Positions 37,286 to 57,196 of a stretch of 64,000 nucleotides of DNA are shown piece by piece. Numbering within the stretch: position 1 is the stretch's first letter; every line of letters begins with the position of its first letter. The notes beneath the pieces were generated by a model that saw only the letters and a list, made by a program, of their open reading frames with translations, ran no database searches and had not been told where the DNA came from. Origin of the DNA: Seleniivibrio sp. (lineage in GTDB: Bacteria; Chrysiogenota; Deferribacteres; Deferribacterales; Geovibrionaceae); NCBI RefSeq assembly GCF_021209385.1, contig NZ_JAJOIL010000022.1, positions 58,264 through 122,263 on the forward strand. The letters are read 5' to 3'. The position numbers and the translations under genes are program-made.

Positions 37286-40200
37286 ATGAATTTTGCCAGC
37301 TGGTCTCTGAGAAACCCGATACCGTCAATATTATTTTTTGCGCTTCTCACAATTGCGGGATTTTACGGTTTTAAAAGCCTTCACATACAGGATCTTCCTG
37401 ATATCGACCTTCCGGCGGTGAATGTTGAGCTGACCCTTCCCGGTGCTTCGCCTGTTCAGCTTGAAACGGAAGTTGCGCGAAAGGCGGAGGATTCTCTGGC
37501 GACCATCGCAGGCATCAAACACATAAACACAACCGTTATCGACGGTCTTGTTTCGATGAACGTGCAGTTCGTGCTGGAAAAGAATCTGTCGGATGCCCTG
37601 CTTGAGACCAAGGATGCAATAGACCGCATAAGATCAGACCTGCCGCCCAACCTTGAAGAACCTGTGATATCTGCCGACCGCATCGGATCCAATGCCATTA
37701 TGGTGTACGCTGTTTCCTCTGCGGGCATGGACGAAGAGGAGCTTTCGTGGTTTACGGATGACGTTATCGGCAAAAGGATTCTTGCTGTGGATGGAGTGGG
37801 TAAGTTTGAACGCATAGGCGGAACGGACAGGGAGATAAAAATTGAAATAGACCCCGTAAAGCTTGCCTCTCTCAACGTGACTGCGGCTGATGTTTCGCAA
37901 ACCCTGAAAAACGTTCAGACGGAAGATTCCGGCGGACGGAGCAGGCTTGACGGGCAGGAACAGCTTATCCGCACCATAACGACGGCTTCAACGGCATCGG
38001 AACTTTCGCAGCTCTCCGTACCGTCGCAGGATGGACGAACCGTAAGGCTTGAACAGGTGGCAAAGGTGCTTGATACCCATGCACAGCGCAGCCAGCTTTC
38101 GCTTCTGGACGGGAAAGAGGTTGTTGGGTTCAACATATACAGAGCCAAAGGCGCGGATGAGGTGACGATCGCCGAAAACGTGCATAAAGTTCTGACAAAA
38201 CTTGAGAAAGAACATCCGGAAATTTTTCTGACACAGGTAAATAATACTGTCAATTACACCATAACGCAGTATGAAGGCTCAATGAGTATGCTCTATGAAG
38301 GCGCTCTGCTTGCCGTCATAGTTGTGTGGTTTTTTCTGCGTGACTGGCGCGCTACACTGATATCTGCGACAGCTCTTCCGCTTTCCATCATCCCGACTTA
38401 TGCTGTGATGCACTGGCTGGGATATTCGCTGAACACTCTGACACTTCTTGCGCAGGCGGTGGTTGTGGGGATATTGGTAGATGATGCCATAGTTGAGATT
38501 GAGAATATCGTACGTCACAAGCGGATGGGCAAGCCTGTCTTCACCGCCGTTTCTGATGCCGTCAACGAAATAGCGCTGGCTGTCATAGCCACAACCTTCA
38601 CCATAGTTGTCGTGTTCCTTCCGACCTCTCTGATGGCTGGTGTGGGCGGACTTTTCTTTAAACAGTTCGGGTGGACGGTGGTGATATCCGTGCTGTTCTC
38701 CCTGCTGGTGGCTCGGCTTTTAACCCCTGTGATGGCGTTCCGGTTTCTGAAGGACGACGCTCATACGCATAAGCCTGACGGGTTTGTAATGAAAACTTAT
38801 ATAACTGTTGTCAGATGGTGTCTCGGACACGGAAAGACACACTTGCGTTTGCCTCCGTTTACATGGTGCTGACTTTCATCCTTGCTTCGGGACTTTCGGC
38901 AGGTTTTATACCGGCTTCAGACGAAGGTTACACCGACGTAGGCATCGAACTGCCGCCCGGAAGTTCCATATCACAGAGCAGACAGACAGCGGAGGAACTG
39001 CGGAGTGTTCTCGGTGATGTTAACGGTATTGCCCATGTGTTCTGCGTTGTCGGTGAATCGGGGAATTCCGGCGAAATGGATAAGAGCAAAATGACGCTGG
39101 TTTTCACTCCGATGGGAAAAAGACCTTCGCAGAGGGAGATTGAGAACGAAGTTCGTCAGAAGCTGAAACTTGTAGCGGGTGCGCGTTTTACTCTGGGGTC
39201 GGAGAACGACGGACTTAACGTCATCTTTGCCGGAGACAATGCGGATGCGCTCAACTCCACTGTGACAGCATTTGAAAAGGAATTAAGAACTCTGGATTAT
39301 CTGAATAATATAAAATCCACTGCCAGCCTTCAGAAACGGGAGCTGATAGTTCGCCCCGATGTTCTGCGCTCCGCAGAGCTGGGGGTGACCGCTTCTGATA
39401 TAGCGTCCACTCTTCGGGTGGCAATGTCAGGAGATTACGATTCGTCCCTTGCGAAGCTTAATCTCGATAACAGACAGGTATACATCCGTACCTATATGTC
39501 GGATGCCGACGTTTCAGATATTGCAGTTATAAGCAATCTTAGAATCCCGACACAGGACGGGACGACGGCTCTCTCAAATATTGCTGATATATCCGTGGGC
39601 AACGGTCCTGCGGAGATTAACCGTTATGACCGAAAAAGATACATAACCGTGAGTGCCGACATCGGCTCGGTGCCGTTGGGTAAGGCAATCGAAGATGCGA
39701 AGGCTTTGCCGTCCATGAAGAATATCCCGGAAAGCGTCAGTATAATAGACGGCGGGGATGCGGAGCTTATGAACGAGCTGTTTTCCGGTTTCGGTGTTGC
39801 CATGGTGACAGGTGTTCTGTGCATGTATTGTGTGCTGGTGTTGCTGTTCAAAGATTTTTTACAACCAATATCCATCCTTTCGGCGCTGCCGCTATCCATA
39901 GGCGGTTCGGTTGCGGCGCTGCTTTTCAGCGGTGAGGAACTCAGTCTTGTCGCGCTCATAGGGATGGTCATGCTGATGGGGATAGTTACAAAAAACTCTA
40001 TCCTGCTGGCTGATTACGCCATAATGAACATGAAGGAACACAATATGCCGCTGACAGAAGCGCTCCTTGACGCATGTCATAAAAGGGCGCAGCCGATCGT
40101 TATGACCACTATCGCCATGATAGCGGGGATGATGCCCATAATACTCGGTTTCGGAGGCGACGCGAGCTTCCGGCGTCCGATGGCGCTGGCTGTTACAGGC

Positions 40201-40296
40201 GGTCTTTTGGCTTCGACATTTCTCAGCCTTCTGATTGTGCCTGTGGTATTTAAATATATTCATGGGATATGGAAAAGATCGTTCAGACAAAACTGA
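37286..40296 (+). pseudogene. RND efflux pump inner-membrane subunit, frameshifted
   Basis: Two ORFs of 528 and 493 aa together give a full-length RND pump of about 1,020 aa: 'NPIPSILFFALLTIAGF' start, central transmembrane block with 'GILVDDAIVEIENI', and second-half 'GIVTKNSILLADYAIM'. The frames (37286 and 38815) differ by one base; a single deletion near 38830 (GGA-CAC-(C)GG-AAA) explains it. This is the second such lesion in the operon. It is either a decaying pump or an assembly problem. No TolC gene follows. Confidence 0.8.
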
Positions 40297-40607
40297 AAAC
40301 GGCTATGAAAATCGCAGGGTATAAGATCGGTTTAAATTTTACTTAAATATTTTCGGTTTATGCCTTGATATATGTAGTTTTCATACCCTTCTCTTAAATA
40401 TCAGAAATCTCCGAAAACAGTTGACAGAGGTCGATTTCATTGATAACTAATACACGTTGATATAATGATATTAATACTCAATATCTTTTATTGCATCCGG
40501 TTTTCCTTATAAATGCAGAATCGGAATAAAATTCAGTAACAGTCTATAAACCGTTCAGGATGGGACTATTCCAATACAGGTAAGGTTTTGATATACTTCT
40601 CGATACT

Positions 40608-40626
40608 GATAATGATTTTCAATACC
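40608..40626 (+). promoter_or_regulatory. Probable Fur box before TonB receptor 1
   Basis: GATAATGATTTTCAATACC matches about 15 of 19 positions of the Fur consensus, 58 bp before the receptor start. In the rest of 40297-40683 there is AT-rich DNA with no gene. Confidence 0.6.
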
Positions 40627-40683: not shown

Positions 40684-42741
40684 ATGAATCAGAGGCGTTT
40701 ATTCAAAACCGGCGGATTGTTGATTGCGGTTTCCATGCTCCTTTCATCGCTTACGGCTAAAGCAGAGGAAGAGGTTCAGGAGATCAAGCCTGTTGTTGTA
40801 ACTGCAACGGGATTTGAACAGTACATTGCGGATGCACCCGCAAGCATCAGCGTGATAACTAAAGAGGAGATTGCAAAGATGCCTGCGGCAACCATCACAG
40901 ATCTGCTTAAAACCGTGGAGGGTGTAAGCATCACAGGATGGATGGCGAGCGAAACTGATATTGTTCTGCGCGGTATGCCGGGCGAGTATACTCTTATAAT
41001 GGTGGACGGGAAGCGGCAGAACACCAGAGAAACGATGAACAGAGGAACCTCAGGCGTTCAGGCTAACATGATCCCGCCGCTTGACGCCATTGAGAGGATA
41101 GAGATCGTCAGAGGACCCATGTCTTCGGTTTACGGTTCAGATGCTATGGGCGGCGTTGTTAATATCATCACCAAAAAAGTTCCCGACGAATGGCATGGTT
41201 CGTTCACTTTCGGAACCATACAGCATAAGGATGGAGAATACGGACAGACCGTAAACAGAGAATTCTGGGTAGGCGGTCCTGTCATTAAAAACAAAGTAGG
41301 CATACAGTTTTACGGTGATCTGGTGGACAGGATGGAGGATGATATCTATTATGCGAACTCCTATGCCAGCGGCAACTATGGGAAAGAGGAACAGAACCTC
41401 ACAGGAAAGGTGTCTATAACCCCCAACAGCAATAACGATATAAACATCGAGGTCGGCAACGAGAAGCTCATATACACCCAGAACAGCGGAAAGAGCCTTG
41501 CGGATAACGCCGCTGATCTTGAAACGAGACATACTCGCGACCACTGGTCTGTAACTCACGACGGAAGATATGGCAAAGCGACGACAAACCTTGCTATCAG
41601 TCAGGAAATAGCGGAACAGAGAAAATGGACGGGCGGGGTTGAAAGCACATCAAAACAGGAGCTTACCAACACTGTTATTGATGCCGGAATGGCTTATAGT
41701 TTTTCAACCAATACACTGCGCATCGGTGGACAGGTTATAAAATCCGAACTCACCGGAATCAGCGAAGAGGCATCACTCACCAACTATCCTGTAAATACGG
41801 ACGAAGTTGATAACGACGCATATGCCGTTTATCTTGAGGATGAATATTTCATAACGAATAATTTATCCCTTACTGCCGGACTGCGCATGGACGACGATGA
41901 AAGATACGGCGACCATTTTACGCCCAGAGTTTATGCTGTTTACCGAATTGCAAACGATTGGACACTCAGAGGCGGTGTTGCGGCAGGCTTCAAAGCTCCC
42001 ACTCTTCGTCAGACAACCGACGGCTATTGCATGACAACAGGCAACGGAACTGCTTATTCTCCCGGAGTTCTTTGCGGCAGTTCTGATCTGGATCCCGAAA
42101 CCAGCCTCACGGAAGAGATCGGTATCCGATACGACAGACCCAACGGGCTTAGCTTTGGCTTTACAGTGTTTAATAACGAGATAAAGAACAAAGTTTCAAG
42201 CTATGCCACAGGTGAACAGGACGCATACAACAACTATATCTACGAATATGAAAACATCGACAAGGTAACCATAAGAGGCGCTGAAGTTTCTTTCGCAACG
42301 CCTCTTACAAAGAAACTTAAACTGACGACCAACTACACATATACGGATTCCGAGCGAAAAGGCGGCGAAACTGCATTCGACGGCAGTTCTCTGGACGGCA
42401 AACCTCTGGACAAGACGCCCGAACACATGTTCAACGCAAAGCTTGATTGGCAGCCTATCAGACCTCTCAGTCTGTTTACCCGTGTAAACGTTGTCAGCGA
42501 GCAATACTGGTTAGGATTCAGGAACTATGCCATGAGCAGCAGAACACGCCCCGGAACGGCGACATATGATATCGGCGGCGCGTATGACCTGAACAAATAT
42601 GTAACTTTCAAAATGTCTGTTCTTAACATAACCGATAAAAAAGTTGCCATTGACAACCGCACCCGTACAGGCGGGCTGGACGGCAACTGGATGGTGGACG
42701 AAGGTCTCAGGATTGCGGCGGATATGACCGTCAGATTCTGA
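40684..42741 (+). CDS. TonB-dependent outer-membrane receptor 1 (siderophore/tetrapyrrole type)
   Basis: About 685 aa. Signal peptide with 'LLIAVSMLLSSLTAKA', then a plug domain ('PVVVTATGFEQYIADAPASI', 'IEIVRGPMSSVYGSDAMGGVVNIITKK') and a 22-strand barrel ending 'LRIAADMTVRF'. The plug pattern is that of CirA/FepA/BtuB-like receptors. The start was moved to ATG 40684, which follows GGAGG. A Fur-like site upstream suggests iron control. It opens the uptake region and probably feeds the ABC importer at 43754-47507. Confidence 0.88.
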   Translation: MNQRRLFKTGGLLIAVSMLLSSLTAKAEEEVQEIKPVVVTATGFEQYIADAPASISVITKEEIAKMPAATITDLLKTVEGVSITGWMASETDIVLRGMPGEYTLIMVDGKRQNTRETMNRGTSGVQANMIPPLDAIERIEIVRGPMSSVYGSDAMGGVVNIITKKVPDEWHGSFTFGTIQHKDGEYGQTVNREFWVGGPVIKNKVGIQFYGDLVDRMEDDIYYANSYASGNYGKEEQNLTGKVSITPNSNNDINIEVGNEKLIYTQNSGKSLADNAADLETRHTRDHWSVTHDGRYGKATTNLAISQEIAEQRKWTGGVESTSKQELTNTVIDAGMAYSFSTNTLRIGGQVIKSELTGISEEASLTNYPVNTDEVDNDAYAVYLEDEYFITNNLSLTAGLRMDDDERYGDHFTPRVYAVYRIANDWTLRGGVAAGFKAPTLRQTTDGYCMTTGNGTAYSPGVLCGSSDLDPETSLTEEIGIRYDRPNGLSFGFTVFNNEIKNKVSSYATGEQDAYNNYIYEYENIDKVTIRGAEVSFATPLTKKLKLTTNYTYTDSERKGGETAFDGSSLDGKPLDKTPEHMFNAKLDWQPIRPLSLFTRVNVVSEQYWLGFRNYAMSSRTRPGTATYDIGGAYDLNKYVTFKMSVLNITDKKVAIDNRTRTGGLDGNWMVDEGLRIAADMTVRF

Positions 42742-42868: not shown

Positions 42869-43732
42869 ATGGAGATGGAACTTAACTCACTGGTAAGATA
42901 TTACGCCGGATTATCTTTTAAGGTGGTGGGCGTGCACCATTACACCATAAAACCCAATACGGTGCATAATCAAATGACTGCTCCCGTTCCCGGATTTCTG
43001 TTTCCCGTGTCGGGAAAGGCTCAGTTCAAATTCAACGGTACGCCATACATAGTGCGTCAGGGAAATGTTATCCATGGTGGACCGGACATGTATCTTGAAA
43101 AAAAAGTGCTGGGCAGTGAAAAGTGGGAATACATCTCCGTCTTTTACGAAACAGAGGGGAAAAAACAGAAAGACTTTACGCCATCCGGTAAGGATTTTGA
43201 GCTGGTGACAGGTCAGAGTCCGCGGCTGATCGATCTTTTGTGGCGTTTATGGCGGGCTTATAACCAGCCGGGAGCTATTTCCGCTTTTCGCACCGAGATG
43301 CTTTTCAGATGCGTGCTTGAGGAGGTTTTCGTTTGTGCCGGCAACCGCCAGAGTGACGGCTCACTTGGTCTTTTTGAACATGTCTCTTCTTATATCCATG
43401 AACACTACATGGATGTTCTAAGCGTGCGGAAACTGGCAGAGCTGAACGATGTGAACGAGAACAGGCTGTTTTATGTTTTTACTAAATTTTCGGGCATGGG
43501 ACCTGCCGACTATATAACCCAGTACCGTCTCAACAGGGCGAAAGAACTTCTGATAACCACTGACGGAGCTGTCGGCTGTGTCGCGAAGAGTGTCGGTTAT
43601 CCGGATCAGCTGTATTTCAGCAGGATATTCAGAAAGCGCATAGGTGTTTCGCCAAGCGGACTGCGTGAGCTGTTCAGGAATAATCCATGTGCGTTTCAGG
43701 ATGGGGCGATTCCCATGAAGAGCGCTCTTTGA
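42869..43732 (+). CDS. AraC-family regulator of the uptake operon
   Basis: About 287 aa with an N-terminal cupin-type sensor ('PVSGKAQFKFNGTPYIVRQGNVIHGGP') and a C-terminal double helix-turn-helix ('LSVRKLAELNDVNENRLFYVFTKF', 'GCVAKSVGYPDQLYFSRIFRKRIGVSP'). ATG 42869 follows AAGGA. It is the first gene of the ABC/nitrogenase-like operon, 21 bp before the binding-protein gene, so it is likely a local activator that senses the imported compound. Confidence 0.85.
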   Translation: MEMELNSLVRYYAGLSFKVVGVHHYTIKPNTVHNQMTAPVPGFLFPVSGKAQFKFNGTPYIVRQGNVIHGGPDMYLEKKVLGSEKWEYISVFYETEGKKQKDFTPSGKDFELVTGQSPRLIDLLWRLWRAYNQPGAISAFRTEMLFRCVLEEVFVCAGNRQSDGSLGLFEHVSSYIHEHYMDVLSVRKLAELNDVNENRLFYVFTKFSGMGPADYITQYRLNRAKELLITTDGAVGCVAKSVGYPDQLYFSRIFRKRIGVSPSGLRELFRNNPCAFQDGAIPMKSAL

Positions 43733-43753: not shown

Positions 43754-44671
43754 ATGAATAAGTTTATTATTGCGGCGGTTCTGCCGCTGATCATACTGAT
43801 TGCTGGCTGTACGAAAACTCATACCAAAAAGAAAGATACCGTTCAGACGAAAACGATCGTTGATGATACGGGAAAATCCATCACCGTTAAAGCGGATGTG
43901 CAGAGAATAGTGATACTTCATGCAATGTATCTGGAATATTTTTTTGCACTGGGTAAACCTCCGGTTGCTTCAACGGGTGCGTCTGCTGGCAATGCCGTTG
44001 ACGTTATAAACGCCGCAGAAACATTAGAACCTTACAGAAATACTGCGGATATAATAGATCTTGGCAGCGCCCGCGAAATAAACGCCGAAGCAGTGCTTGC
44101 GGCGAACCCCGATGTTATTGTCACATTTAAAGGACATGCCGGCAGAGTATATGACAGACTGGTGCAGATTGCTCCGGTTGTTCAGATAGATTTTTACGCC
44201 CCGTGGCAGCACCAGACAAGACTCTGCGCTCAGGTTGCCGGCAGAGAGGCATTCGCCGAACAGTTTATAAAGGAGACTGAAGACGTTATAGCCTCCGCCG
44301 CAGAGAAGCTCTCCGCACATAAAGACAGGACATTTGCAATGTTCCGCACCGATGGAAAGACACTTGTTACAAGAGCGGATAAAGACTATTACGCGCTTTT
44401 CGGATTATCAAAACCGAAGGGTTACCCTGATGAGTACTCACCTGTATCAATCGAATCGGTTGCAGAAATGAACCCAGACTATATTGTTTTTCAGGACAGC
44501 ACTGCGAGATCGGACGCGTATGCTTCATTTCTCGGAAGTATGTCCGTCTGGCGTTCACTTGATGCAGTCAAAAACGGCAGGGTCTTCTATTTCGACGATT
44601 CCTTCAATTCATTCGGACCGCTGGCTCTGCGCCTTACCGCCGAAAATCTTTTAAAGGTATATTCCCGTTGA
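43754..44671 (+). CDS. Periplasmic binding lipoprotein of an iron-siderophore/cobalamin-type ABC importer
   Basis: A 305-aa protein. The lipobox LIAGC is near residue 19. A two-lobe class III binding protein follows ('ADVQRIVILHAMYLEYFFALGK', 'NAEAVLAANPDVIVTFKG', 'SVAEMNPDYIVFQDS'). It captures a metal chelate or tetrapyrrole delivered by a TonB receptor. The stop overlaps the TTG start of the first permease, so the genes are translationally coupled. Confidence 0.88.
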   Translation: MNKFIIAAVLPLIILIAGCTKTHTKKKDTVQTKTIVDDTGKSITVKADVQRIVILHAMYLEYFFALGKPPVASTGASAGNAVDVINAAETLEPYRNTADIIDLGSAREINAEAVLAANPDVIVTFKGHAGRVYDRLVQIAPVVQIDFYAPWQHQTRLCAQVAGREAFAEQFIKETEDVIASAAEKLSAHKDRTFAMFRTDGKTLVTRADKDYYALFGLSKPKGYPDEYSPVSIESVAEMNPDYIVFQDSTARSDAYASFLGSMSVWRSLDAVKNGRVFYFDDSFNSFGPLALRLTAENLLKVYSR

Positions 44672-45666
44672 GAAAATTCCTCTTATCATTTTCCGTAATT
44701 GTTTCAGGGATGGCTGTTCTTGTCCTGCTGATGTTTCTATCGGTTTCAGGCGGCAGTTCCGATATCCCTTTTGCCGTGGTGTGGTCGGCGCTGTTTCACT
44801 TTGACCCGTCCGACATGCGGCATCTCGTAGTGACTGACCTGCGTTTGCCTAGGGTTGCTGCCAGTGCGCTTGTGGGTGCGGCACTGTCTGTTGCAGGTGC
44901 CGTTATGCAGGGAACCACGGGCAACCCCCTTGCGGATTCGGGACTTCTGGGACTTAACGCAGGGGCAGGGTTCGCCGTTGCACTCTGTTTCGCTTTCATC
45001 CCGTCGGCAGGATATGTTTATATCGTCATGGCATCCTTTGCGGGAGCGGCTTTCGGTGCGTTTGCCGTTTATTCTGTGGCTTCCATGCGCAAAGGCGGAG
45101 CGTCCCCCATGCGGCTTGTTTTAACCGGGGCGGCGGTGACAGCTCTTCTGGCGGCTCTTAGTCAGGGTATAGCTTTGTATTTCAACGTCGCGCAGGATAT
45201 CATGTTCTGGACTGTTGGCGGCGTTGCAGGTGTCGGCTGGAATCAGGTTGCCGTACTTACGCCATGCATACTCGCCGCACTGGCAGTATCCATGCTGATA
45301 TCCCGCCATATTACAGTCCTCAGCCTCGGCGAAGATATTGCAAAGGGGCTTGGGCTTAATGTGTTCACTGTCAGGCTGGCATCGTTTATATGTGTGACTT
45401 TGCTTGCAGGCGCGTCGGTTGCTGTTGTGGGCGCTGTGGGTTTTGTAGGTTTAATATTCCCGCATCTGGCAAAATTTATCACAGGTGCGGATTATCGACG
45501 GATAATTCCGGTCTCGGCGGTTCTCGGCGCTATTATGATGGTGCTGGCGGATTTTGCATCCCGAACCATTAACCCGCCCGCAGAAACTCCGGTGGGTGCT
45601 TTTGCTGCGCTGATAGGCGTTCCGTTTTTTCTTTATCTCTCGCGTAAACAGAAGAGGGCGGTCTGA
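44668..45666 (+). CDS. FecCD/BtuC-type ABC permease 1
   Basis: A 332-aa, about ten-helix permease with family motifs 'LRLPRVAASALVGAALSVAGAVMQGTTGNPLADSGLLGLNAGAG' region and 'GFVGLIFPHLAKFITGADYR'. The start is TTG 44668, overlapping the preceding stop. It probably forms a heterodimer with the next permease. Confidence 0.9.
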   Translation: MRKFLLSFSVIVSGMAVLVLLMFLSVSGGSSDIPFAVVWSALFHFDPSDMRHLVVTDLRLPRVAASALVGAALSVAGAVMQGTTGNPLADSGLLGLNAGAGFAVALCFAFIPSAGYVYIVMASFAGAAFGAFAVYSVASMRKGGASPMRLVLTGAAVTALLAALSQGIALYFNVAQDIMFWTVGGVAGVGWNQVAVLTPCILAALAVSMLISRHITVLSLGEDIAKGLGLNVFTVRLASFICVTLLAGASVAVVGAVGFVGLIFPHLAKFITGADYRRIIPVSAVLGAIMMVLADFASRTINPPAETPVGAFAALIGVPFFLYLSRKQKRAV

Positions 45667-46691
45667 TGTCAACCGCCTGTCAGGTATATAAAAGAAAAGT
45701 GTATATGCGCAATACTGCCGTGGCATCGGCGGGCATTCTGCTTCTGCTGGCGGCGCTTGTGGTCAGCATGAACACAGGATATACCAGACTTCTTCCGTCG
45801 GATACTTTCAGGATACTGTTCGGCGGCGGTACGGATGCTGAAAATCTTATACTGTTCCAGTTCCGGCTGCCTCGTGTTGTGCTGGCGGCAATGGCAGGTG
45901 CGGGGCTGGCGCTTTCCGGCTGTATCATTCAGGATATTTCAAAAAACCCGCTGACTGACCCCGGACTTCTGGGGATCAACGCAGGAGCCGGACTAGCTGT
46001 TCTGCTTTACGTACTTTTTTTCGGTACAACAACTTTCATGGCGGTGTTCACCCTTCCCATACTCGCTTTTGCTGGTGCAGGTGTCACTTCCGTTCTGATA
46101 TATCTGCTCGCTTTTAAGGCGGGCGAGGGAACTTCACCCGTTCGGCTTATCCTGACAGGTATCGCTGTTCAGGCGGGGATTTTTGCCCTGACGACAGTGC
46201 TGGTCATAAATCTTGACGAGACACAGTTCGATTTCGTTGCCATGTGGCAGGCGGGAAGCATATGGGGTTCCGGCTGGAAATATGTGCTGGCGCTTCTGCC
46301 GTGGCAGGCGGTTCTTATACCTTTTGTTATTTACAGGTCGAGGATGCTGGATGTTCTGAGCCTTGACAGCAGTGCCGCGTGCAGTCTCGGTGTCGCTGTT
46401 GAGAGGGAACAGAGGATTCTGCTCGCATGTGCAGTTGCTCTTGCGGCTTCATGCGTGGCTGTCAGCGGGAATATAAGTTTCGCAGGGCTGATAGCGCCAC
46501 ATATGGCGAGGCGGCTTGTGGGTCCACGTCATACGGTTCTTCTGCCCGTATGCGCTCTCACGGGAGCCGTTATTGTTTCGGCGGCGGACACTTTTGCAAG
46601 GGTCATTGTTCAGCCTTCGGAAATTCCCACAGGAATAGTCACCGCAGTGATAGGCGCGCCGTATTTCATATGGCTGATGACGAGAAAGTAA
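45666..46691 (+). CDS. FecCD/BtuC-type ABC permease 2
   Basis: A 341-aa protein whose ATG overlaps the previous stop by one base (TGATG). Family motifs 'FRLPRVVLAAMAGAGLALSG', 'NPLTDPGLLGINAGAG' and 'ISFAGLIAPHMARRLVGP' are present. It partners permease 1; two different permeases are typical of FecCD/FhuB-like iron systems, whereas BtuC is a homodimer. Confidence 0.9.
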   Translation: MSTACQVYKRKVYMRNTAVASAGILLLLAALVVSMNTGYTRLLPSDTFRILFGGGTDAENLILFQFRLPRVVLAAMAGAGLALSGCIIQDISKNPLTDPGLLGINAGAGLAVLLYVLFFGTTTFMAVFTLPILAFAGAGVTSVLIYLLAFKAGEGTSPVRLILTGIAVQAGIFALTTVLVINLDETQFDFVAMWQAGSIWGSGWKYVLALLPWQAVLIPFVIYRSRMLDVLSLDSSAACSLGVAVEREQRILLACAVALAASCVAVSGNISFAGLIAPHMARRLVGPRHTVLLPVCALTGAVIVSAADTFARVIVQPSEIPTGIVTAVIGAPYFIWLMTRK

Positions 46692-46703
46692 GGAGCCTTG
46701 TTT

Positions 46704-47507
46704 ATGAACAGCATCACCACCGAAAACCTGAGTGTTGCATATGAGGAGAAGCTTGTCGTTGATGAGCTTGATCTTAACATACCCAAAGGAAGGGTCACTT
46801 CCATCATAGGACCTAACGGATGCGGCAAATCCACGGTTCTTAAAACCATCGGACGCATCATGAAACCTAAGAACGGAATGGTATATCTGAACGGAAAGGA
46901 CATAAGCGACCTTTCGACAAAAGAGATAGCCAGAAAGATGGCTATTCTTCCCCAGTCACCGCAGGCTCCTTCGGGTCTGACGGTGGGTGAACTGGTCGCA
47001 TACGGCAGATATCCGCACCAGAAAGGGTTCGGCGTTCTTAAACCTGAGGACAGAAAGGTAATTGAATGGGCGCTCGAGGTGACGAAACTCAGCGACCTTG
47101 AGACCACAGCGGTTGACAACATGTCCGGCGGACAGAGGCAGAGGGTGTGGATTGCCATGGCGCTGGCTCAGCAGACCGACCTTATCCTGCTGGACGAGCC
47201 GACAACTTATCTGGACATGTCATATCAGCTTGAGGTGCTTGAACTGCTTTACAGGCTGAACCGCGAACAGAACTGCACAATAGCCATGGTTCTGCACGAT
47301 CTGAACCTTGCAGCACGCTTTTCAGATCACATGATCGCCATACGGGGCGGGAACATAATGAAATACGGCACACCGGAAGAGGTTATGACAGCGGAAGTTT
47401 TAAAGAAAACCTTCCGCGTACATGCGGAGATAGTCACAGACCCCCGTTCGGGACGACCGGCGTGTATATCATATGACCTGATAAGGGACGAAGGAGATTC
47501 AGTATGA
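46704..47507 (+). CDS. ABC importer ATPase (FecE/FepC-like)
   Basis: About 267 aa. Walker A 'GPNGCGKST', Q-loop 'LPQSPQAPSG', signature 'MSGGQRQRVW' and Walker B 'LILLDEPTTYLD' are intact. ATG 46704 has AAGGAG upstream. The stop overlaps the NifH-like start (ATGA), which directly couples import to the nitrogenase-like genes. Confidence 0.92.
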   Translation: MNSITTENLSVAYEEKLVVDELDLNIPKGRVTSIIGPNGCGKSTVLKTIGRIMKPKNGMVYLNGKDISDLSTKEIARKMAILPQSPQAPSGLTVGELVAYGRYPHQKGFGVLKPEDRKVIEWALEVTKLSDLETTAVDNMSGGQRQRVWIAMALAQQTDLILLDEPTTYLDMSYQLEVLELLYRLNREQNCTIAMVLHDLNLAARFSDHMIAIRGGNIMKYGTPEEVMTAEVLKKTFRVHAEIVTDPRSGRPACISYDLIRDEGDSV

Positions 47508-48259
47508 AAAAAATAGCTATCTACGGCAAGGGTGGGATAGGGAAATCCACCACCGTATCAAATATATCTGCGGCAATGGCTTCAATGGGGCTGACAGTGC
47601 TTCAGGTGGGGTGCGACCCGAAAGCGGATTCGTCAAGAAACCTGACAGAAGGACAGAACATCCCCACGGTTCTTGAGGTGCTGAGAAAGAAGGGCGACCC
47701 CGAACTAGAAGATCTTGTGGTAAAGAGTACCACAGGGGTCTACTGCGTTGAATCCGGCGGTCCCATACCCGGTGTGGGCTGTGCCGGACGGGGTATTATC
47801 ACTGCATTTGAAAAACTGGAGGAGCTGGACGCTTTCGGCGTATATCAGCCGGACGTTGTTATGTACGACGTTCTGGGCGACGTGGTTTGCGGCGGTTTCG
47901 CCATGCCTATCAGGGGCGGTTATGCGGATGACGTCTGCATAGTGACGTCCGGCGAGATGATGTCACTCTATGCCGCAACGAACATATCCCACGCAGTGCG
48001 CAGTTTCGGAAAACGGGGCTATGCCTCTCTGCGCGGACTGATTCTGAATGCGAAGAACTTTGAAGGCGAACAGGAGCTTGTGGACAAGGCGGCGGCGGAG
48101 ATAGGCACTCCCGTGCTTTACAGAATGCCTAGAAACCAGCTTGTTCAGAAGGCGGAGGCGGACGGCAAAACAGTTATTGAGGCGTTTCCTGATTCTGATA
48201 TGGCAGAGCATTACAGAACCCTCGCAAAGCTGTTGCTGGATGGCGGCGAAGATGTTTGA
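47504..48259 (+). CDS. NifH-like [4Fe-4S] ATPase (nitrogenase-like reductase component)
   Basis: A 251-aa protein. P-loop 'GKGGIGKST' at residues 8-16, 'GCDPKADSS' at 37-45, and the two cluster cysteines C93 ('GVGCAGRG') and C129 ('GDVVCGGFAMPIR') are all present, so it should be a working ATP-driven electron donor. It is shorter than true NifH. It begins inside the ABC ATPase gene and ends inside the next gene. Family members of this kind serve nitrogenase, chlorophyll-type reductases (BchL/ChlL, BchX), CfbC of F430 synthesis and MarH. The context here (TonB/ABC uptake) suggests reduction of an imported compound. Confidence 0.9.
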   Translation: MKKIAIYGKGGIGKSTTVSNISAAMASMGLTVLQVGCDPKADSSRNLTEGQNIPTVLEVLRKKGDPELEDLVVKSTTGVYCVESGGPIPGVGCAGRGIITAFEKLEELDAFGVYQPDVVMYDVLGDVVCGGFAMPIRGGYADDVCIVTSGEMMSLYAATNISHAVRSFGKRGYASLRGLILNAKNFEGEQELVDKAAAEIGTPVLYRMPRNQLVQKAEADGKTVIEAFPDSDMAEHYRTLAKLLLDGGEDV

Positions 48260-49490
48260 TCATTTAAAAAAACTTTCAGCAGTGAAATCCGGCAACGGTA
48301 TAAAATTTCTTTCTCCTGCGGTCTTTCCGGGCAATCACTGCCCCATGAGGATCGCATCTGTGATCGTTGAGGATATTAAGGGGCTTTCATCCCTTCTGGT
48401 TGGTACACCTGAATGTGCCACCCACTCAAGACTTTTCAGCCCATTGCCGGAAGGCAGACACGGCGAACTGCACTGGCTTTATGTTATAGATTCCAACGAA
48501 GTTGTGTTCGGGTGCCGCGAAGGCATTATGGACGCTCTGCGCAAAATGGACAGAGCGGGCGCTGAGGCGATTCTCATAATAGGCACCTGCATACCGGAGC
48601 TTATCGGCGAGGATATGGAGGGGCTGATACACGAGATACAGCCTGAGCTGAAGGCAAGAGTTGCGTTCGTTATGCTCGGTCAGTTCAAGAACGTAAGCTA
48701 TCCGCCAGGTTCATGGAAAACCATGGAGGCTATGGCATCACTGATGGACAGCGCCGGAAGGGACGGCATGAGGGTAAACATTCTGGGCAGGTCGCCAGTT
48801 GAGGAGCATATCCCGAGACCCGCCTTACTGGATCATCTGGAATCGGCAGAGCTGAAACTGAGATATCTTGCGCCGGGAGCATCTCTGGATGATTTCAGAC
48901 AGGCTCCGGATGCTTCGCTGAACATAGTTCTTTCGCCGTTTGCCCAGCCTTTGGCAGTGCGTATGGAGAAGGACTTCGGCACTCCCTTCATAGCTTTGCA
49001 CGATAAATACGACCCAGCGGAGATTGAGAAGGCATATGCAGACATAGCCGATGCGGCTGGATTCAGCTGGAACGGTGAGTTTGATGCGGAAAAGCTCGGG
49101 GCTGAAAACCTGCAGGCGAAAGCTGCTGAAAGGCTCAAAGGGATGAGTTTTGTATTCTCCCAGAGAATAGACATGCCTGTTCCGCTGGCGGGTTATTTCA
49201 CAGGGCTTGGTATGGAGCCTCTGCTTCTGCACCTTGAAGAATATTACCCTGCCGACAGCGTACATGTGAAGAAAATAAAAGATGCCGGACACGACCCGCT
49301 CGTTTGCCGGATAACGCATATAGCCGAAGATGAAAAGCTCATAAGGGAGCTTAAACCGGATGTCTGCTTCGGATATTTTCAGAAAACCGATATACAGTGC
49401 GTTTCGGATATGTATGATTTTTACGGTCAGACCGGATACGGGCGCACCGTAAACATTCTTAAAAGGATTTTTGAAGTTACAGGGGAATAA
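48252..49490 (+). CDS. NifD-like catalytic subunit of a nitrogenase-like reductase
   Basis: About 412 aa from ATG 48252, which overlaps the NifH-like stop; the track start is 37 codons too early. Cysteines C30 ('GNHCPM'), C55 ('TPECATH') and C113 ('IGTCIPELIGED') have the spacing of the three P-cluster/NB-cluster ligands of NifD or BchN, with a fourth at C88. There is no evidence for FeMo-cofactor ligands or other nif genes (nifB, nifEN), so N2 fixation is not supported. It most resembles the tetrapyrrole-reductase branch. Confidence 0.82.
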   Translation: MFDHLKKLSAVKSGNGIKFLSPAVFPGNHCPMRIASVIVEDIKGLSSLLVGTPECATHSRLFSPLPEGRHGELHWLYVIDSNEVVFGCREGIMDALRKMDRAGAEAILIIGTCIPELIGEDMEGLIHEIQPELKARVAFVMLGQFKNVSYPPGSWKTMEAMASLMDSAGRDGMRVNILGRSPVEEHIPRPALLDHLESAELKLRYLAPGASLDDFRQAPDASLNIVLSPFAQPLAVRMEKDFGTPFIALHDKYDPAEIEKAYADIADAAGFSWNGEFDAEKLGAENLQAKAAERLKGMSFVFSQRIDMPVPLAGYFTGLGMEPLLLHLEEYYPADSVHVKKIKDAGHDPLVCRITHIAEDEKLIRELKPDVCFGYFQKTDIQCVSDMYDFYGQTGYGRTVNILKRIFEVTGE

Positions 49491-49491
49491 A

Positions 49492-50724
49492 ATGGGTCTT
49501 CTCAGGTTTAAACCGATACCGTCCGGCAGAATGGGGACGCTCTGGACGCTTTCAACTATAAAAAACGCCGCACTGGTGGAGTTCGGCTGTATGGGGCATA
49601 TGCTTTACAGCGGCGTGACGCTGAAACACGGAGGAGTAAACGACCTTTGCAGACTTTATTCAACCCACATAGACGAAACGGACATAGCTCTGGGCGGAAC
49701 AGATCGGCTTGAGCATACAGTCGCAGGCGTTATAAAAAACGACAGCCCAAAGGTCATTTTCTTCCTGCCGTCCGCCGTGCCGGAGGTCATCGGAACCGAT
49801 CTGCGCGCGCTTTGTGACGAGCTGCAGCAGGAACATCCCGAGGTTAAGATGATTCCTTTCGGGCAGGGCGGATTTAACGTTTATCAGCATGAAGGCATCA
49901 AAAACGCCCTGCTGACACTTGTTAAAAGTATCCCCGCTGAAACGGAAAGGACACCTGAACCCTCTTTTAACATAATAGGTTCCTGTGCCGACCTGTTCCG
50001 TTTTCAGGCGGATGCACAGGAGACCGTTCGGGTTGTTGAGGGTGCTTTCGGAATGAAGACGTTGTGCGTGCTGACATCCGACACCTGTGTTGAGGATATT
50101 GAACGCATCGGTTCGGCACATATAAACCTCGTGATCAGACGTGAGGGCGAGGCGGCGGCTAAATACCTGCAAAGGAAATACGGAACGCCGTATATTCTCC
50201 ACCGTCCCTACGGGATTGACGGAACTGCCGAATGGCTTGAGAGAATAGGCAGGATGCTTGGAATAAGCCCCGCAAAGGAGTTTATTGAAGCGGAAAAAAG
50301 TATTGCCCGCAAAAGGCTTGAACCGGTCATGCCACATTTCAGACATATGGCGAGGGCGCATCAGGAGGATGTTACGCTCCATCTCGGCGCTCATGCTGAT
50401 GTTGTTGGCGGCATACTGTCTTTCGGATGCCGTGAGCTCGGATTTCATAAAGGCATCTGCTGGTGCGACAACCCCGATATGGGGACTGATGAGCTGCCTT
50501 ATTACTCAGAAGAAAAATGGATTTCCGCCGTTGAGGGACTGAAAGACGGACTTTTCATGTCCAGCGGCGAGATATTGGAATGGTCGGGGAGAAGCCTGTC
50601 AATGCAGATATCATATCCTGACAGGTTATGGCATCTGCACCCGTTTGAGCCGCCATTCATGGGCTTCCGCGGTGCCGTTAATCTGGCGAATCTCTGGATA
50701 AACTGCAATATCGAGCGCTGGTAA
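49492..50724 (+). CDS. NifK/BchB-like second subunit of a nitrogenase-like reductase
   Basis: About 410 aa from ATG 49492, one base after the previous stop. The N-terminus 'MGTLWTLSTIKNAALVEFGCMGH' aligns in style with BchB ('GTLR..SSFKN'), which supplies a single ligand to the intersubunit cluster. Here C33 could take that place, while the position of the third NifK cysteine reads 'LPSAVPEVIGTD' (Ser for Cys). A 3+1 ligand set across two unlike subunits is the pattern of dark-operative protochlorophyllide reductase. It ends the operon; 118 bp follow before TonB receptor 2. Confidence 0.78.
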   Translation: MGLLRFKPIPSGRMGTLWTLSTIKNAALVEFGCMGHMLYSGVTLKHGGVNDLCRLYSTHIDETDIALGGTDRLEHTVAGVIKNDSPKVIFFLPSAVPEVIGTDLRALCDELQQEHPEVKMIPFGQGGFNVYQHEGIKNALLTLVKSIPAETERTPEPSFNIIGSCADLFRFQADAQETVRVVEGAFGMKTLCVLTSDTCVEDIERIGSAHINLVIRREGEAAAKYLQRKYGTPYILHRPYGIDGTAEWLERIGRMLGISPAKEFIEAEKSIARKRLEPVMPHFRHMARAHQEDVTLHLGAHADVVGGILSFGCRELGFHKGICWCDNPDMGTDELPYYSEEKWISAVEGLKDGLFMSSGEILEWSGRSLSMQISYPDRLWHLHPFEPPFMGFRGAVNLANLWINCNIERW

Positions 50725-50842: not shown

Positions 50843-52897
50843 ATGAAGAGATTTCTTTTTTCAGTTTTTCTGTTGTCGGGCATAGTCAATGCCTCGGCAC
50901 AGGAAGAGCTGGTTATTGACCAGATAAACGTCACCGCGCAGAAATATGAAGAGAAACAGTATAAAACGCCTTTGAGCATTGATGCGTATGACGAAGCCGA
51001 CATATCATCTAAGGATGTTTCGGAACTTAAGGATTTATCAAATTACTCGGCAAATGTGCACATCAAGTCAGATAACGTCGGCAACTCGGTTGTTATAAGA
51101 GGTGTCGCGCCCTTCACGACAACCCTTGTAAATCCTGTAGGCGTTTATATCGACGGAGTTGCTCTGCCTACGCTGTTTATGCAGCAGCCGGATTTGAGCG
51201 GTGTTCAGAGAATCGAAATCCTTAAAGGACCGCAGGGAACTCTATACGGCAGGAACTCGGAATCAGGTGTTATTAATATCATAACGAAGAAACCGGATAA
51301 CATTGTAAATGGTTATATATCTGCCGAATATTATGTTTACGATACCGGAGACAACCCGTACGGAACAAAATACAGCTTTGACGTCAGCGGTCCAATGGTA
51401 AAAGACAGATTTTTTGTGGGGTTGTCTGCGGTTTTAAACCGTACCGACGGGTATTTTAAAAATATATATAACGGAGATGACAAAGCCGGAGAACTGGACA
51501 GAAAGGATCTGACGTTTAAGCTGAGAGCTCTGCCCTCTGCGAAATCAGAGGTATATTTCAGTTCATATTACTACAATGCTGACGATGCCAAAGGAAAATT
51601 CAGAGTTCTGGACGGCACATATGCAACGCCGCAATATTCGATAAATTACAATGATAAATATACTCAGAGCTACGACGGCTGGGTGAACAGTCTGAGTTAT
51701 TCATACGAGCTGAACGGATACACTATCACATCCACAACGGGTTATACTGATTATTCCAGAGAATTTTCAAAGGATTTTGACGGAACCTCTCAGTCGCAAG
51801 GGCTTTCGGTGCTTGATCTTGAAGATACCGCTTTAAGTGAAGAACTGAAAATCAGCCGTAAAACAAACAGTTATAAATTCATAGGCGGTCTGTATGCCTT
51901 CACACAGGATACAGACACAGTCTTTGAGAAAACTTTTACCAAAGAAAAAAGAACAGCCGATACAGAAAACAAGGGATATGCTGTTTTCGGACAGTTTTCT
52001 CCAAGGATTACAGAAAGTTTTTATGTTGACCTTGGACTGAGGATTGAGCAGTCGTCCATAGATTCAGATATGGATTATGCGAAAGCATCCGCTCTTTATA
52101 AATTTTCGGACAGCCAAACATACACGCAGGTTCTTCCGAAACTCTCACTGAATTTTGAAACTGAAAGCGGTTTGCTGTACGCATCAGTGGCGAAAGGCTA
52201 TCTTGCGGGCGGTGTTAACTATAATCTTGCCACTTCCGACGAATCCCTTTTGTACGGTGCGGAACATACCATCAACTATGAACTCGGATATAAAGCGGTT
52301 CTCGCTTCCGGAAGGCTGGGTGTTAATGCTGCAGTGTTCTACACAGACATGAAAGATAAACAGGTCAGCCAGGTTATTTCCGGCGAGGCAGGAAATGTAA
52401 AGATAAGCAACGCATCGAAAGCGCATGCTTACGGAGCTGAGATTTCAGCCAATTATAAAGCTGCGAAGGGGTTGACGCTGTTCTCTTCAGCCGGATTAAC
52501 AAAATCTTTTGCAGATGACTGGATTGATTCACAGTATAACTCATCCTCTCAGAAGTATACCTATACCGATTATTCCGGTAACAGACTTCCCACTGTTCCT
52601 GAACACACTTTTGACATAGGGTTTGAGTATATACACCCGTCAGGATTTTTTATATCTGGTGATTCTGTTTATACCGGAGGATTTTATTATGATGGTGCGA
52701 ACAATCTGAAAGAAGGGGCTTATGTTCTCTATAACGCAAGAACCGGATATCTTTGGGATCATATTGAGTTGACGCTATGGTGTGAAAACCTGACGGATAC
52801 TTCCTATACGGAATCCCAGTCATTCATGAGAGCGACAACAGTTGCGGAAGACGGAAAACCCAGAACATTCGGAGTTAAAATTGCATACAGATACTGA
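50843..52897 (+). CDS. TonB-dependent outer-membrane receptor 2
   Basis: A 684-aa protein with signal peptide 'FLFSVFLLSGIVNASA' and TonB-box-like 'LVIDQINVTAQK'. Plug motifs 'IEILKGPQGTLYGRNSESG' and 'INIITKKP' follow, then a barrel ending 'FGVKIAYRY'. The 'GPQGTLYGRN' pattern is that of the FecA/iron-complex (sucrose-type) receptor branch and differs from receptor 1. AGGAGG precedes the ATG. It starts a second operon with the methyltransferase and the SsuABC-like genes. Confidence 0.88.
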   Translation: MKRFLFSVFLLSGIVNASAQEELVIDQINVTAQKYEEKQYKTPLSIDAYDEADISSKDVSELKDLSNYSANVHIKSDNVGNSVVIRGVAPFTTTLVNPVGVYIDGVALPTLFMQQPDLSGVQRIEILKGPQGTLYGRNSESGVINIITKKPDNIVNGYISAEYYVYDTGDNPYGTKYSFDVSGPMVKDRFFVGLSAVLNRTDGYFKNIYNGDDKAGELDRKDLTFKLRALPSAKSEVYFSSYYYNADDAKGKFRVLDGTYATPQYSINYNDKYTQSYDGWVNSLSYSYELNGYTITSTTGYTDYSREFSKDFDGTSQSQGLSVLDLEDTALSEELKISRKTNSYKFIGGLYAFTQDTDTVFEKTFTKEKRTADTENKGYAVFGQFSPRITESFYVDLGLRIEQSSIDSDMDYAKASALYKFSDSQTYTQVLPKLSLNFETESGLLYASVAKGYLAGGVNYNLATSDESLLYGAEHTINYELGYKAVLASGRLGVNAAVFYTDMKDKQVSQVISGEAGNVKISNASKAHAYGAEISANYKAAKGLTLFSSAGLTKSFADDWIDSQYNSSSQKYTYTDYSGNRLPTVPEHTFDIGFEYIHPSGFFISGDSVYTGGFYYDGANNLKEGAYVLYNARTGYLWDHIELTLWCENLTDTSYTESQSFMRATTVAEDGKPRTFGVKIAYRY

Positions 52898-52898
52898 T

Positions 52899-53870
52899 AT
52901 GAAGGGTTATGTAACCCTTTTAAACGAAATGAACGGATATATACGCTGGCAGCTGATAAGTTCAGCCATTAAACATCATGTGTTTGACCATATTAAAGAA
53001 TGGACGGTTGCTGGTACAGTTGCAGGAAAACTCGGCGGTCGCACCGACAGAACAGAGATATTTTTGGATGCACTCGTAAGCTGCGGCTATCTGGAAAAAT
53101 GCTGCGGAAGATACAGAAACAGCAGTCTGAGTGCAAGGTATCTGGTTTCTGATTCAGAAACGTATCAGGGCAGACTGGTGCTTTCTCTTGCATCCAGAAG
53201 ACTGTACGGGCTTGACGATATAATGTCGCTTATAGCGGCAAAAGATGCCGCAGTTTTTAATCTAGGCAACGAACCGGTGTGGACAGAGGCGTTTGAAAAC
53301 CTTATCCCTTTTCAGAAAATGGTGGGCTTAAATGCTGTGGAAACTGTTGTTTCCCTTGAGGGACTGAACACCGACGGCAGATTTCTTGATCTTGGCGGTG
53401 GTCCCGGATTTATCGGCATATCCATTCTGGATACTTTTCCGTCAATGTCCATGACGCTTTTTGATCTGCCATCTGTTATTGAAATGGCACAGAAAATTCA
53501 CGGAGACAGGATAAGCTATATTTCAGGGAGTTACTCTAAGGATGATATAGGAAGCGGATACGACCTTATCTGGGCGAGCCGCAGTCTGTATTATGCCGAT
53601 GATCTCCATGCTCTGCTTTGCAAAATTGCGGGCGCTCTGAATGCCGGCGGATATTTTATATCGGTTCACGAAGGACTTTACAACGAAAAAACACAGCCGC
53701 AGGAAGTGATTATCAACAGACTGGGTGTGGCTCTTTCCGGTTCTGACGTTTCCATCAAAATTGGAGAAATTGAGGAAGCAGTAGCCGGAAGCGGCTTGAT
53801 TCTTGTCGGAAGCAGAATATCCGGTGATTCCGGCGGGGAAGCTGACGTAATTATAGCGAGGAAACCATGA
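52899..53870 (+). CDS. SAM-dependent O/C-methyltransferase, acetylserotonin-OMT/BchU-like
   Basis: About 323 aa. The N-terminal helical dimerisation domain ('GYIRWQLISSAIKHHVFDHI', 'FLDALVSCGYLEKCCGRYRNSSLSARYL' region) is followed by a Rossmann methyltransferase fold with 'GRFLDLGGGPGFIGI' and 'YDLIWASRSLYYADD'. The family includes plant-type O-methyltransferases, CrtF and the tetrapyrrole C-20 methyltransferase BchU. I chose ATG 52899, one base after the receptor stop. Its stop overlaps the next ATG (ATGA). It could modify the imported ligand or a made metallophore; the substrate is unknown. Confidence 0.75.
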   Translation: MKGYVTLLNEMNGYIRWQLISSAIKHHVFDHIKEWTVAGTVAGKLGGRTDRTEIFLDALVSCGYLEKCCGRYRNSSLSARYLVSDSETYQGRLVLSLASRRLYGLDDIMSLIAAKDAAVFNLGNEPVWTEAFENLIPFQKMVGLNAVETVVSLEGLNTDGRFLDLGGGPGFIGISILDTFPSMSMTLFDLPSVIEMAQKIHGDRISYISGSYSKDDIGSGYDLIWASRSLYYADDLHALLCKIAGALNAGGYFISVHEGLYNEKTQPQEVIINRLGVALSGSDVSIKIGEIEEAVAGSGLILVGSRISGDSGGEADVIIARKP

Positions 53871-54775
53871 AAATAATTTATACGCTTCTTATAATCGCTG
53901 CTGCTGCATACGGTTACTGCGGTGATAAAATTCTGCTTACCGGAACTGCCGTTTACGAAAGCTGTCCGATGATAATGATGCAGAAAGATCCGGAGTTCGT
54001 CAGGGCAGGATATTCGGCTGAATTTACAGGATGGAACTCGCCCGATCAGTACAGAGTTGCAGTATCTCAGGGGAAATCCGTTTATGTGACAGTGAGCATG
54101 CTTGATTACATGCGCCTTTCAGGGAGAGTAAAGGGAGCGTCGCTGTTATTTGCCGTTGAAAACACACCCATGTGGTTTTTGTCATGCGACAAAGATTTTT
54201 CAATGGAAAACATATCCGGAAAAACAATAGCTCTGCCGTTCAGGGGTGATATGCCGGAGATTCTGCTGGATATGCTCCTCGCCGGAAAAGGCGTTGACAG
54301 AAAGAAGGTCAGAGTGGTCTCCGCCGGAGGACCAGTTTCATCCGCACAGCTTGTTATGACAGGCAGGGCGGATGCCGTTCTTCTTCCCGATCCGATGGCA
54401 TCCACAGCAGAGTCCATGTCATTTCAGGACAGCAGGCTCCGGAAACTGGTTAAAAAAATATCAGTTTACGATGAATGGAACAGAGCTTATCAGAAAAACA
54501 TACCTCTGATTTTCAGCGGCATTGCGGGCTTCAGTACGGACAGCGGGCAGAATTCTCTGTTTCGCAGGCTGTATGTTAAATATGACAGAATATGCAGAGA
54601 CAATCCGGACAGATCAGTTGATGCGTTTATGGAGTATTTTCCTGCTCTGGACAGGAAATCAGCCGAAAAAATAATGAAAAACAGCCGGGTTAAAGTTTCC
54701 GGCGGTTCCATTGAAAACGGCGGAATTAATAAATTCATCGGTCTTATGAAGCGGTATGTTGAAACTGAATATTGA
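53867..54775 (+). CDS. Periplasmic substrate-binding protein (SsuA/ThiY/NMT1-like)
   Basis: A 302-aa protein with a short signal peptide ('LLIIAAAAYGYC') and a type II binding fold ('GKTIALPFRGDMPEILLDMLL', 'LVMTGRADAVLLPDPMAS'). It belongs with the following permease and ATPase genes; all overlap. SsuA/ThiY-like proteins carry sulfonates, pyrimidines or nitrate, but context with a TonB receptor and methyltransferase suggests another ligand. Confidence 0.78.
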   Translation: MKIIYTLLIIAAAAYGYCGDKILLTGTAVYESCPMIMMQKDPEFVRAGYSAEFTGWNSPDQYRVAVSQGKSVYVTVSMLDYMRLSGRVKGASLLFAVENTPMWFLSCDKDFSMENISGKTIALPFRGDMPEILLDMLLAGKGVDRKKVRVVSAGGPVSSAQLVMTGRADAVLLPDPMASTAESMSFQDSRLRKLVKKISVYDEWNRAYQKNIPLIFSGIAGFSTDSGQNSLFRRLYVKYDRICRDNPDRSVDAFMEYFPALDRKSAEKIMKNSRVKVSGGSIENGGINKFIGLMKRYVETEY

Positions 54776-55502
54776 TGTTTCTGCAAGAATTGCCGGGGTG
54801 CTCCTGCTGTTTCTGGTGTGGAAGTCTGCCTCGGCAGGTATGGGAAGTCTGGTCCTTGCCTCGCCGGAAGATTCGTTTCGTGCCGCATGGAGACTTCTGA
54901 ACAATGCGGATTTTGTTGAAACCCATCTTGCCGTTACGATATTCAGAATATCCGTATCAATTATTTCAGGGGTGGTTGCCGGAGTTATTCTGGGAATTCT
55001 CGGAGGGACTCGCAGACATTTTTTTATTTTCGCTGAGCCTTTCAGGAGAGTGCTTACCAGTATCCCTGGTATAGTTGCAGCCGTGCTGGCAATGCTTTGG
55101 TTCGGACTCGGCAGTCTGATGGTCATAGTTCTGAGTACGGTTTTCATCGTCCCCACCGTATATGCCAACGTTGCGGAAGGGATAAGATTAAGCGATGAAA
55201 AATATATACAGGTGGCAGAAGTTTTTCAGATACCTGTTTTTTACCGCGTAACAGATATATATATTCCTGCTGTATACTCAGCTCTCTGCGCTTCCATACT
55301 CATTGTGACAGGCAACTGCGTGCGACTTGTCATCCTCGCGGAAGTGATGGGAACAGAAAGCGGTATCGGTTTTGTGGTATCGGTTTCAAGGGCAAGGCTG
55401 GATATGCCCGTTCTGTACGGCTGCGTGATCATATGTTTCGGGCTGGTCTGGCTGATGGAGTCTGCATCTAAATATCTGCTAAGGAGATGGGGAAGTGTCT
55501 GA
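54756..55502 (+). CDS. SsuC/TauC-like ABC permease
   Basis: A 248-aa, five-to-six-helix permease with the EAA-type loop 'VAEVFQIPVFYRVTDIYIPAVYSAL'. Its ATG lies 20 bp inside the binding-protein gene, and its stop overlaps the ATPase gene. Confidence 0.85.
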   Translation: MLKLNIDVSARIAGVLLLFLVWKSASAGMGSLVLASPEDSFRAAWRLLNNADFVETHLAVTIFRISVSIISGVVAGVILGILGGTRRHFFIFAEPFRRVLTSIPGIVAAVLAMLWFGLGSLMVIVLSTVFIVPTVYANVAEGIRLSDEKYIQVAEVFQIPVFYRVTDIYIPAVYSALCASILIVTGNCVRLVILAEVMGTESGIGFVVSVSRARLDMPVLYGCVIICFGLVWLMESASKYLLRRWGSV

Positions 55503-56964: not shown

Positions 56965-56980
56965 TGTAACGTCCACTAAA

Positions 56981-57022: not shown

Positions 57023-57083
57023 GACTAAAAATCCATCCGGCAATCAGACTATTCTTTTGCTTTGCGAAAACTATAATGGAAAT

Positions 57084-57187: not shown

Positions 57188-57196
57188 CGTTGTAGG

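Follow-up and report, generated by a model that had tools for sequence, protein, structure and literature searches.

The window analysed here, a stretch of 64,000 nucleotides from a Seleniivibrio-like genome of 2.9 Mb, carries on its forward strand an operon in which a TonB-dependent receptor, an AraC-family regulator and an ATP-binding cassette (ABC) importer of the siderophore type are followed by three genes for a nitrogenase-like reductase, here called H, D and K. A predicted box for the ferric uptake regulator Fur (40602–40621) lies 5′ of TonB1 (40684–42741), a receptor of the catecholate-siderophore type whose ATG at 40684 follows a GGAGG, the longest open reading frame (ORF) starting from GTG 40639. 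Next come the AraC-family regulator (42869–43732, with ATG 42869 as probable start; PF12833, 67 bits), a periplasmic binding lipoprotein of the siderophore type (43754–44671; PF01497, lipobox LIAGC), two FecCD permeases, FecC (44668–45666; PF01032, 312 bits) and FecD (45666–46691; PF01032, 320 bits), and a FecE-like ABC ATPase (46698–47507; ABC_tran, scoring 318 bits with the FecE model at a cut-off of 375). With its PBP2-type binding protein, two FecCD permeases and FecE-like ATPase the importer is of the FecBCDE type. The reductase genes encode the NifH-like Fe protein H (47504–48259; Fer4_NifH PF00142, 313 bits), the NifD/BchN-like catalytic subunit D (48252–49490; Oxidored_nitro PF00148, 211 bits) and the NifK/BchB-like catalytic subunit K (49492–50724; PF00148, 184 bits), which all score above the Pfam gathering scores and thus belong to the nitrogenase superfamily (Nfl, Group IV sensu lato). 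A first, sequence-only reading had described these three genes as tightly joined to the importer, and both the Pfam matches and the junctions bear this out: the binding protein and FecC genes share a TTGA overlap, the ABC ATPase and H genes an ATGA overlap with an AAGGAG site ahead of it, H and D overlap by 8 nt (D starting at ATG 48252, compared with a TTG in the longest ORF), and only 1 nt separates D from K (K starting at ATG 49492). The same reading let the operon begin with the AraC sensor; an AraC orthologue does head the operon in many relatives, but here the start is probably TonB1, which has the Fur box ahead of it.

The outer membrane receptor and the binding protein both point to a siderophore as cargo. 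TonB1 reaches 570 bits with the IreA profile, 360 with CirA and 279 with the FepA type, compared with 201 for haem receptors and 178.5 for B12 receptors, and its nearest solved structure is CirA (2hdf, 311 bits), alongside the enterobactin receptors PirA, PfeA and FepA. Searched against the PDB, the binding-protein profile of the family finds FeuA first (101 bits), then FhuD, YfiY, BauB and FepB, with the haem-binding IsdE at 38 bits; BtuF was not among the 60 matches listed. In Sporomusa the TonB receptor beside the cluster passes the siderophore-receptor cut-off (340 bits at a cut-off of 223.5), and homologues of this siderophore-type receptor are carried by Pelosinus and Anaerospora. These results bear directly on the alternative of a cargo of haem, haem products or some other metallated tetrapyrrole, which would be reduced after import to free or salvage the metal; a tetrapyrrole was one of the examples given in the sequence-only reading, next to a metal chelate. 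Haem uptake is likewise Fur-controlled, the Fe protein groups with CfbC, the modelled K is closest in structure to BchB, and all of the characterised relatives that work without NifB, namely the dark-operative protochlorophyllide oxidoreductase (DPOR), the chlorophyllide oxidoreductase COR and CfbCD, reduce tetrapyrroles. However, both receptor and binding protein are far more similar to proteins for catecholate siderophores than to those for haem or cobalamin, which makes a tetrapyrrole cargo less likely, and a search of seven related loci found no Rfam family, the cobalamin riboswitch included. We therefore do not favour the tetrapyrrole, and consider this alternative improbable, though still worth weighing.

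The Fur box ahead of TonB1 contains a 15-mer at 40607, TGATAATGATTTTCA, with one mismatch to the 7-1-7 Fur consensus; it is overlapped by a sigma-70-like site (40588–40616), the score of which is not above chance. When up to 400 bp upstream of the first gene were considered in 55 relatives, taking the TonB gene as first gene wherever it leads the operon, 10 had a Fur 15-mer with no more than one mismatch and 14 had one with no more than two, compared with 0.03 and 0.5 expected from shuffled sequence. Setting the operon start without TonB genes gave 7/54 and 11/54, compared with 3/246 and 5/246 for the other genes of these loci, which served as control. Both Pelosinus and Anaerospora have one-mismatch boxes ahead of their TonB receptors. 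Control of the operon by Fur, and hence by iron starvation, is predicted from these sites.

The association of importer and reductase is conserved well beyond the window. A scan of 85,462 species genomes with a K profile returned 60 loci, mostly in Bacillota, but also in Deferribacterota, Coriobacteriales, Treponema, a metagenome-assembled genome (MAG) of Anaerolineaceae and the archaeon Methanoplasma; adding the window and two plasmid loci, one from Sporomusa and a distant set from Treponema, made 63 loci for the comparison. In 23 of them, the window counted, all eight parts of the gene set are present no further than 11 kb from K, and FecC, FecD, D and K occur together in 36/63. The complete set is found mainly in Bacillota and also in Deferribacterota and Actinomycetota, with an archaeal version that has no AraC gene. 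FecC, FecD and the ATPase of these operons are mostly 52–78% identical to those of the window, compared with 30–42% for other FecCD proteins of the same loci, and distances between K proteins correlate with those of FecD (0.71) and FecC (0.66). Even in two loci of rearranged order (L069 and L088) a binding protein, FecCD permease and ATPase are still situated beside H-D-K. The transporter linkage on which the sequence-only reading had staked its interpretation is thus kept in homologues. The closest relative in the collection is a MAG labelled Seleniivibrio woodruffii (K 87% identical). Only 3 of 51 Deferribacterota genomes have the family at high score, which suggests horizontal transfer.

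Phylogenetic analysis sets the reductase apart from the characterised enzymes, and no subunit falls into a clade of known role, a placement that would have spoken against a new function. D falls into a supported clade of its own (99/99), as does K (100/100), both separate from the NifDKEN and AnfDK of the same genome, from BchNB, BchYZ and CfbD, and from the Mar-like set, in a tree with long reference branches. The sister of D (98/97) comes from a second transporter-linked set, present in Treponema and Methanoplasma. The Fe protein is placed with CfbC and this second set in one clade (95/94) that excludes BchL, BchX and Nif/Anf; only this coarse grouping is used, because starred branches are few in the tree and the Bch branches are long. 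In a Methanoplasma locus (L118, 818–4373) a fused NifH-NifD-like protein is followed by a K-like gene, with no close reference in the D/K tree.

Every curated model of the nitrogenase superfamily scores H, D and K below its cut-off. H is closest to CfbC (335 bits, cut-off 402) and NifH (332, cut-off 394), and reaches 202 with BchL (cut-off 345); the best score of D is with NifE (36, cut-off 505; nifD 27, cut-off 654; BchN 19, cut-off 420) and that of K with BchB (98, cut-off 490; nifK 18, cut-off 427). The Fe protein has all of its ligands, as noted at first reading: the P-loop reads GKGGIGKS and the [4Fe-4S] cysteines C93 and C129 are kept in 54/54 sequences. For the catalytic pair, three plus one cysteine ligands had been proposed. 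The three in D are invariant across the family, C30, C55 and C113 aligning with C29, C54 and C115 of BchN and with the cluster cysteines of NifD and NifE, but the fourth-ligand column of K holds a histidine, His36, in 59/62 sequences, where BchB has Asp36, NifK Cys95 (A. vinelandii numbering), and NifN and CfbD a cysteine. K has a Cys33 three residues before His36. Cys33 was rejected as first choice for the fourth ligand, since it is replaced by Ala or Ser in four relatives (L077–L080), in all of which His36 is retained. Most divergent in the family are L085 and L088, in which position 36 of K is Thr and position 33 is not a cysteine; in L088 a FecC permease and an ABC ATPase are located between H and D, despite the missing His36 and Cys33. 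AlphaFold2 models of the single chains are confident, with a predicted local distance difference test (pLDDT) of 92 for D and 90.6 for K, and by Foldseek the K model is nearest to BchB (template modelling (TM) score 0.84, 3.2 Å), the D model to NifK and MarD (TM 0.67).

That the enzyme is itself a nitrogenase, or a C-S-cleaving reductase of the Mar/Isr type with a complex FeS cofactor, is suggested by the fold family and the operon order, and the genome does have Nif and Anf. The latter are, however, separate: a complete-looking Mo-nitrogenase locus (nifHDKEN) and an Fe-only nitrogenase locus (anfHDK) are present elsewhere (L114 and L115), with AnfD and AnfK scoring above cut-off, and therefore N2 fixation is served elsewhere in the genome. 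The sequence-only reading was accordingly right that nifEN is missing from the window, though not from the genome, where it is part of the Mo-nitrogenase locus. D and K themselves score far below all catalytic-subunit cut-offs of Nif, Vnf and Anf. At the column of the cofactor (L-cluster) cysteine, nitrogenase Cys275, D has Ser228, aligned with C274 of the NifD from the same genome, and the column of the cofactor ligand His442 of nitrogenase falls outside the local alignment of D. The clade is separate from the Mar-like set, and the window operon contains no radical S-adenosylmethionine (SAM) B partner as found in Mar and Isr. NifB gave no match or noise only in 11 of 22 host genomes, the window's own genome not having been searched for nifB, and the enzyme therefore cannot generally need a NifB-derived cluster. 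A nitrogenase or Mar/Isr-type enzyme is thus largely refuted and has very little probability left.

A further alternative goes back to Dos Santos et al. (2012), who reported that nitrogenase-like genes adjoin ABC transporters and proposed a coupling of metal transport to cofactor assembly (PMC3464626), so that the imported metal would be passed to a NifEN-like D/K scaffold building a metallocluster. The sequences of D and K are indeed NifE/NifN-like. Against a scaffold stand the lack of NifB in half of the hosts, the serine in place of the L-cluster cysteine of D, and the comparison of the 63 loci, in which no candidate client enzyme is kept beside the cluster; we regard it as having only a slim chance.

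The interpretation that we favour, and to which we would give about an even chance, is that the locus is a Fur-controlled siderophore-uptake operon with its own DPOR-type, ATP-driven reductase, which would contain only [4Fe-4S] clusters and release iron from the imported ferric siderophore. A ferric siderophore, most likely a catecholate, would cross the outer membrane through TonB1, be captured by the binding lipoprotein and enter the cell via the FecCD/FecE-type importer, with the AraC protein probably sensing the siderophore. In the cytoplasm the NifH-like protein would spend ATP to pass electrons singly to a [4Fe-4S] cluster held by C30, C55 and C113 of D and by His36 (or Cys33) of K. From this cluster the electrons may reach the ferric siderophore in the D/K cavity, as they reach protochlorophyllide in DPOR, and Fe(III) would be reduced to Fe(II) and then released from the chelator. 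Transport, regulation and anatomy are supported as predictions by the sequence comparisons, whereas substrate, reaction, cluster type and histidine ligand are what we infer. An ATP-driven reduction of the imported molecule had already been proposed for this locus, and it is the metal-release core of that proposal that is best supported, by the transporter linkage, the Fur boxes and a DPOR-type enzyme without a general need for NifB. Reduction would suit such a substrate, as the potentials of Fe(III)-siderophores are very negative and their iron often has to be reduced to be released (PMC11965169).

Alternatively, what the enzyme reduces could be a bond in the organic part of the siderophore (N-O, C=N, aromatic or the like); the chelator would then be destroyed and lose its iron. 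The evidence from transport, Fur boxes and linkage is equal for both. Characterised nitrogenase relatives act on C=C or C-S bonds and not on bound metals (PMC12552129), and esterases of PF00756, the fold family of enterochelin esterase, which Sporomusa and two Paenibacillaceae encode near the cluster, hint at processing of the chelator. The receptor types vary, however, being CirA-like in the window and of the TIGR01783 type with FhuA/FoxA-like matches in the Negativicutes, and therefore a general metal-reducing role fits better than reduction of a single bond type. Cleavage of an organic bond is accordingly unlikely, but is an alternative to be kept in mind.

Several points weigh against reduction of the chelated iron. 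A clear Fur box is limited to the 14 of 55 loci mentioned above, and no transporter adjoins H-D-K in about ten rumen and gut members, in some Clostridia and in a MAG of the Deferribacterota (L080). Nor is it evident from sequence that a bulky ferric siderophore would fit in the D/K cavity, and the tetrapyrrole chemistry of the NifB-free relatives counts here as well. The recognised families of cytoplasmic ferric-siderophore reductases are two, SIP and FSR/FhuF (PMC11965169). SIP is absent from 24/24 hosts and FhuF from 22/24, but as SIP is also missing from nearly all Deferribacterota without the cluster, their absence is uninformative and was rejected as support.

Among the known systems that come close, DPOR (BchLNB/ChlLNB) shares the architecture of H and D/K, the aligned D cysteines, the K fold and an expected [4Fe-4S]-only chemistry. 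It differs in the fourth ligand, which is Asp36 in BchB and His36 in K, in scores that are far below the BchN, BchB and BchL cut-offs, and in its linkage to pigment genes, the place of which is taken here by siderophore transport. CfbCD of coenzyme F430 synthesis resembles the present system in its Fe protein and in having no complex cluster; CfbD, however, is a homodimer, as opposed to two distinct subunits, and groups with neither D nor K. The second set in Treponema saccharophilum and Methanoplasma (L030 and L119) likewise has H-D-K beside a binding protein, permease or ABC ATPase and a sister D, but its K is only 25–27% identical and forms a separate clade, its D has two cluster cysteines, and its K has a cysteine at the fourth position. 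MarBHDK and IsrBHDK are also transporter-linked nitrogenase-like reductases for nutrient scavenging; Isr requires an SsuABC-type importer (PMC11423573) and Mar carries nitrogenase-type clusters (PMC12552129), but their substrates are sulfur compounds and they include a radical-SAM partner. SIP and FhuF/FSR share the proposed reaction, the cytoplasmic reduction of ferric siderophores, yet are ATP-free flavin or [2Fe-2S] proteins of unrelated sequence. The sequence-only reading knew of no characterised system with this gene set. Characterised it is not: the literature covered, which leaves out most subscription journals and bioRxiv preprints, yielded no function, transport or siderophore role for it, but the association as such was reported in 2012, including a 'light-blue' clade without assigned function (C. 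botulinum CLM_0808/0809 and Alkaliphilus Clos_0313/0314), which has an E-like subunit with three cluster cysteines and an N-like subunit with none, encoded 3′ of an ABC ATPase gene and nifH (Dos Santos et al., 2012; PMC3464626). This clade is probably the present family, an identity that we take from the description and not from an alignment. To the earlier account we add the predicted Fur control, the siderophore-type receptor and binding protein, the hosts without NifB, and the histidine.

We know of no nitrogenase relative whose job is the removal of iron from an imported carrier. The enzyme could, more tentatively, stand for a third class among the ferric-siderophore reductases: a nitrogenase homologue, gated by ATP, whose 3Cys:1His [4Fe-4S] relay would serve to reduce the metal in an imported chelate rather than an organic bond or N2. 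Enzyme and importer would have spread together, as one cassette, among anaerobes; this wider claim is rather less probable than not. If true, an ATP-driven nitrogenase-type reductase would explain how ferric catecholates, with their very negative reduction potentials, give up their iron in strict anaerobes that have neither SIP nor FhuF. Metal-chelate reduction would then be added to a superfamily of N2, C=C and C-S chemistry, in support of the idea that early members handled metals, and, with members in gut and rumen bacteria, the use of xenosiderophores there becomes testable.

Downstream of K, a second TonB-dependent receptor (TonB2, 50843–52897) is present in the window. The sequence-only reading had placed the operon between two such receptors, and both are there, but TonB2 does not lie downstream of the cluster in the sister species and was therefore rejected as a component. 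It belongs to a separate-looking second uptake operon (50843–56088) with an O-methyltransferase-like gene (PF00891) and an importer consisting of an NMT1-type binding protein, permease and ATPase. Further along (56071–62632), a perfect 19-mer Fur box at 56981 is situated just 5′ of an AraC gene on the minus strand, which is followed by paired fused ABC permease-ATPases and an RhtX/FptX-like gene of the major facilitator superfamily, resembling siderophore uptake of the YbtPQX type; these genes and this box give the entire right end of the window the look of an iron island. On the other side of the operon (37286–40296), an AcrB-type resistance-nodulation-division pump is divided between two ORFs of different frame, which overlap around 38815–38872 and each match one half of PF00873, indicating a frameshift that is either a sequencing error or the mark of a broken gene.

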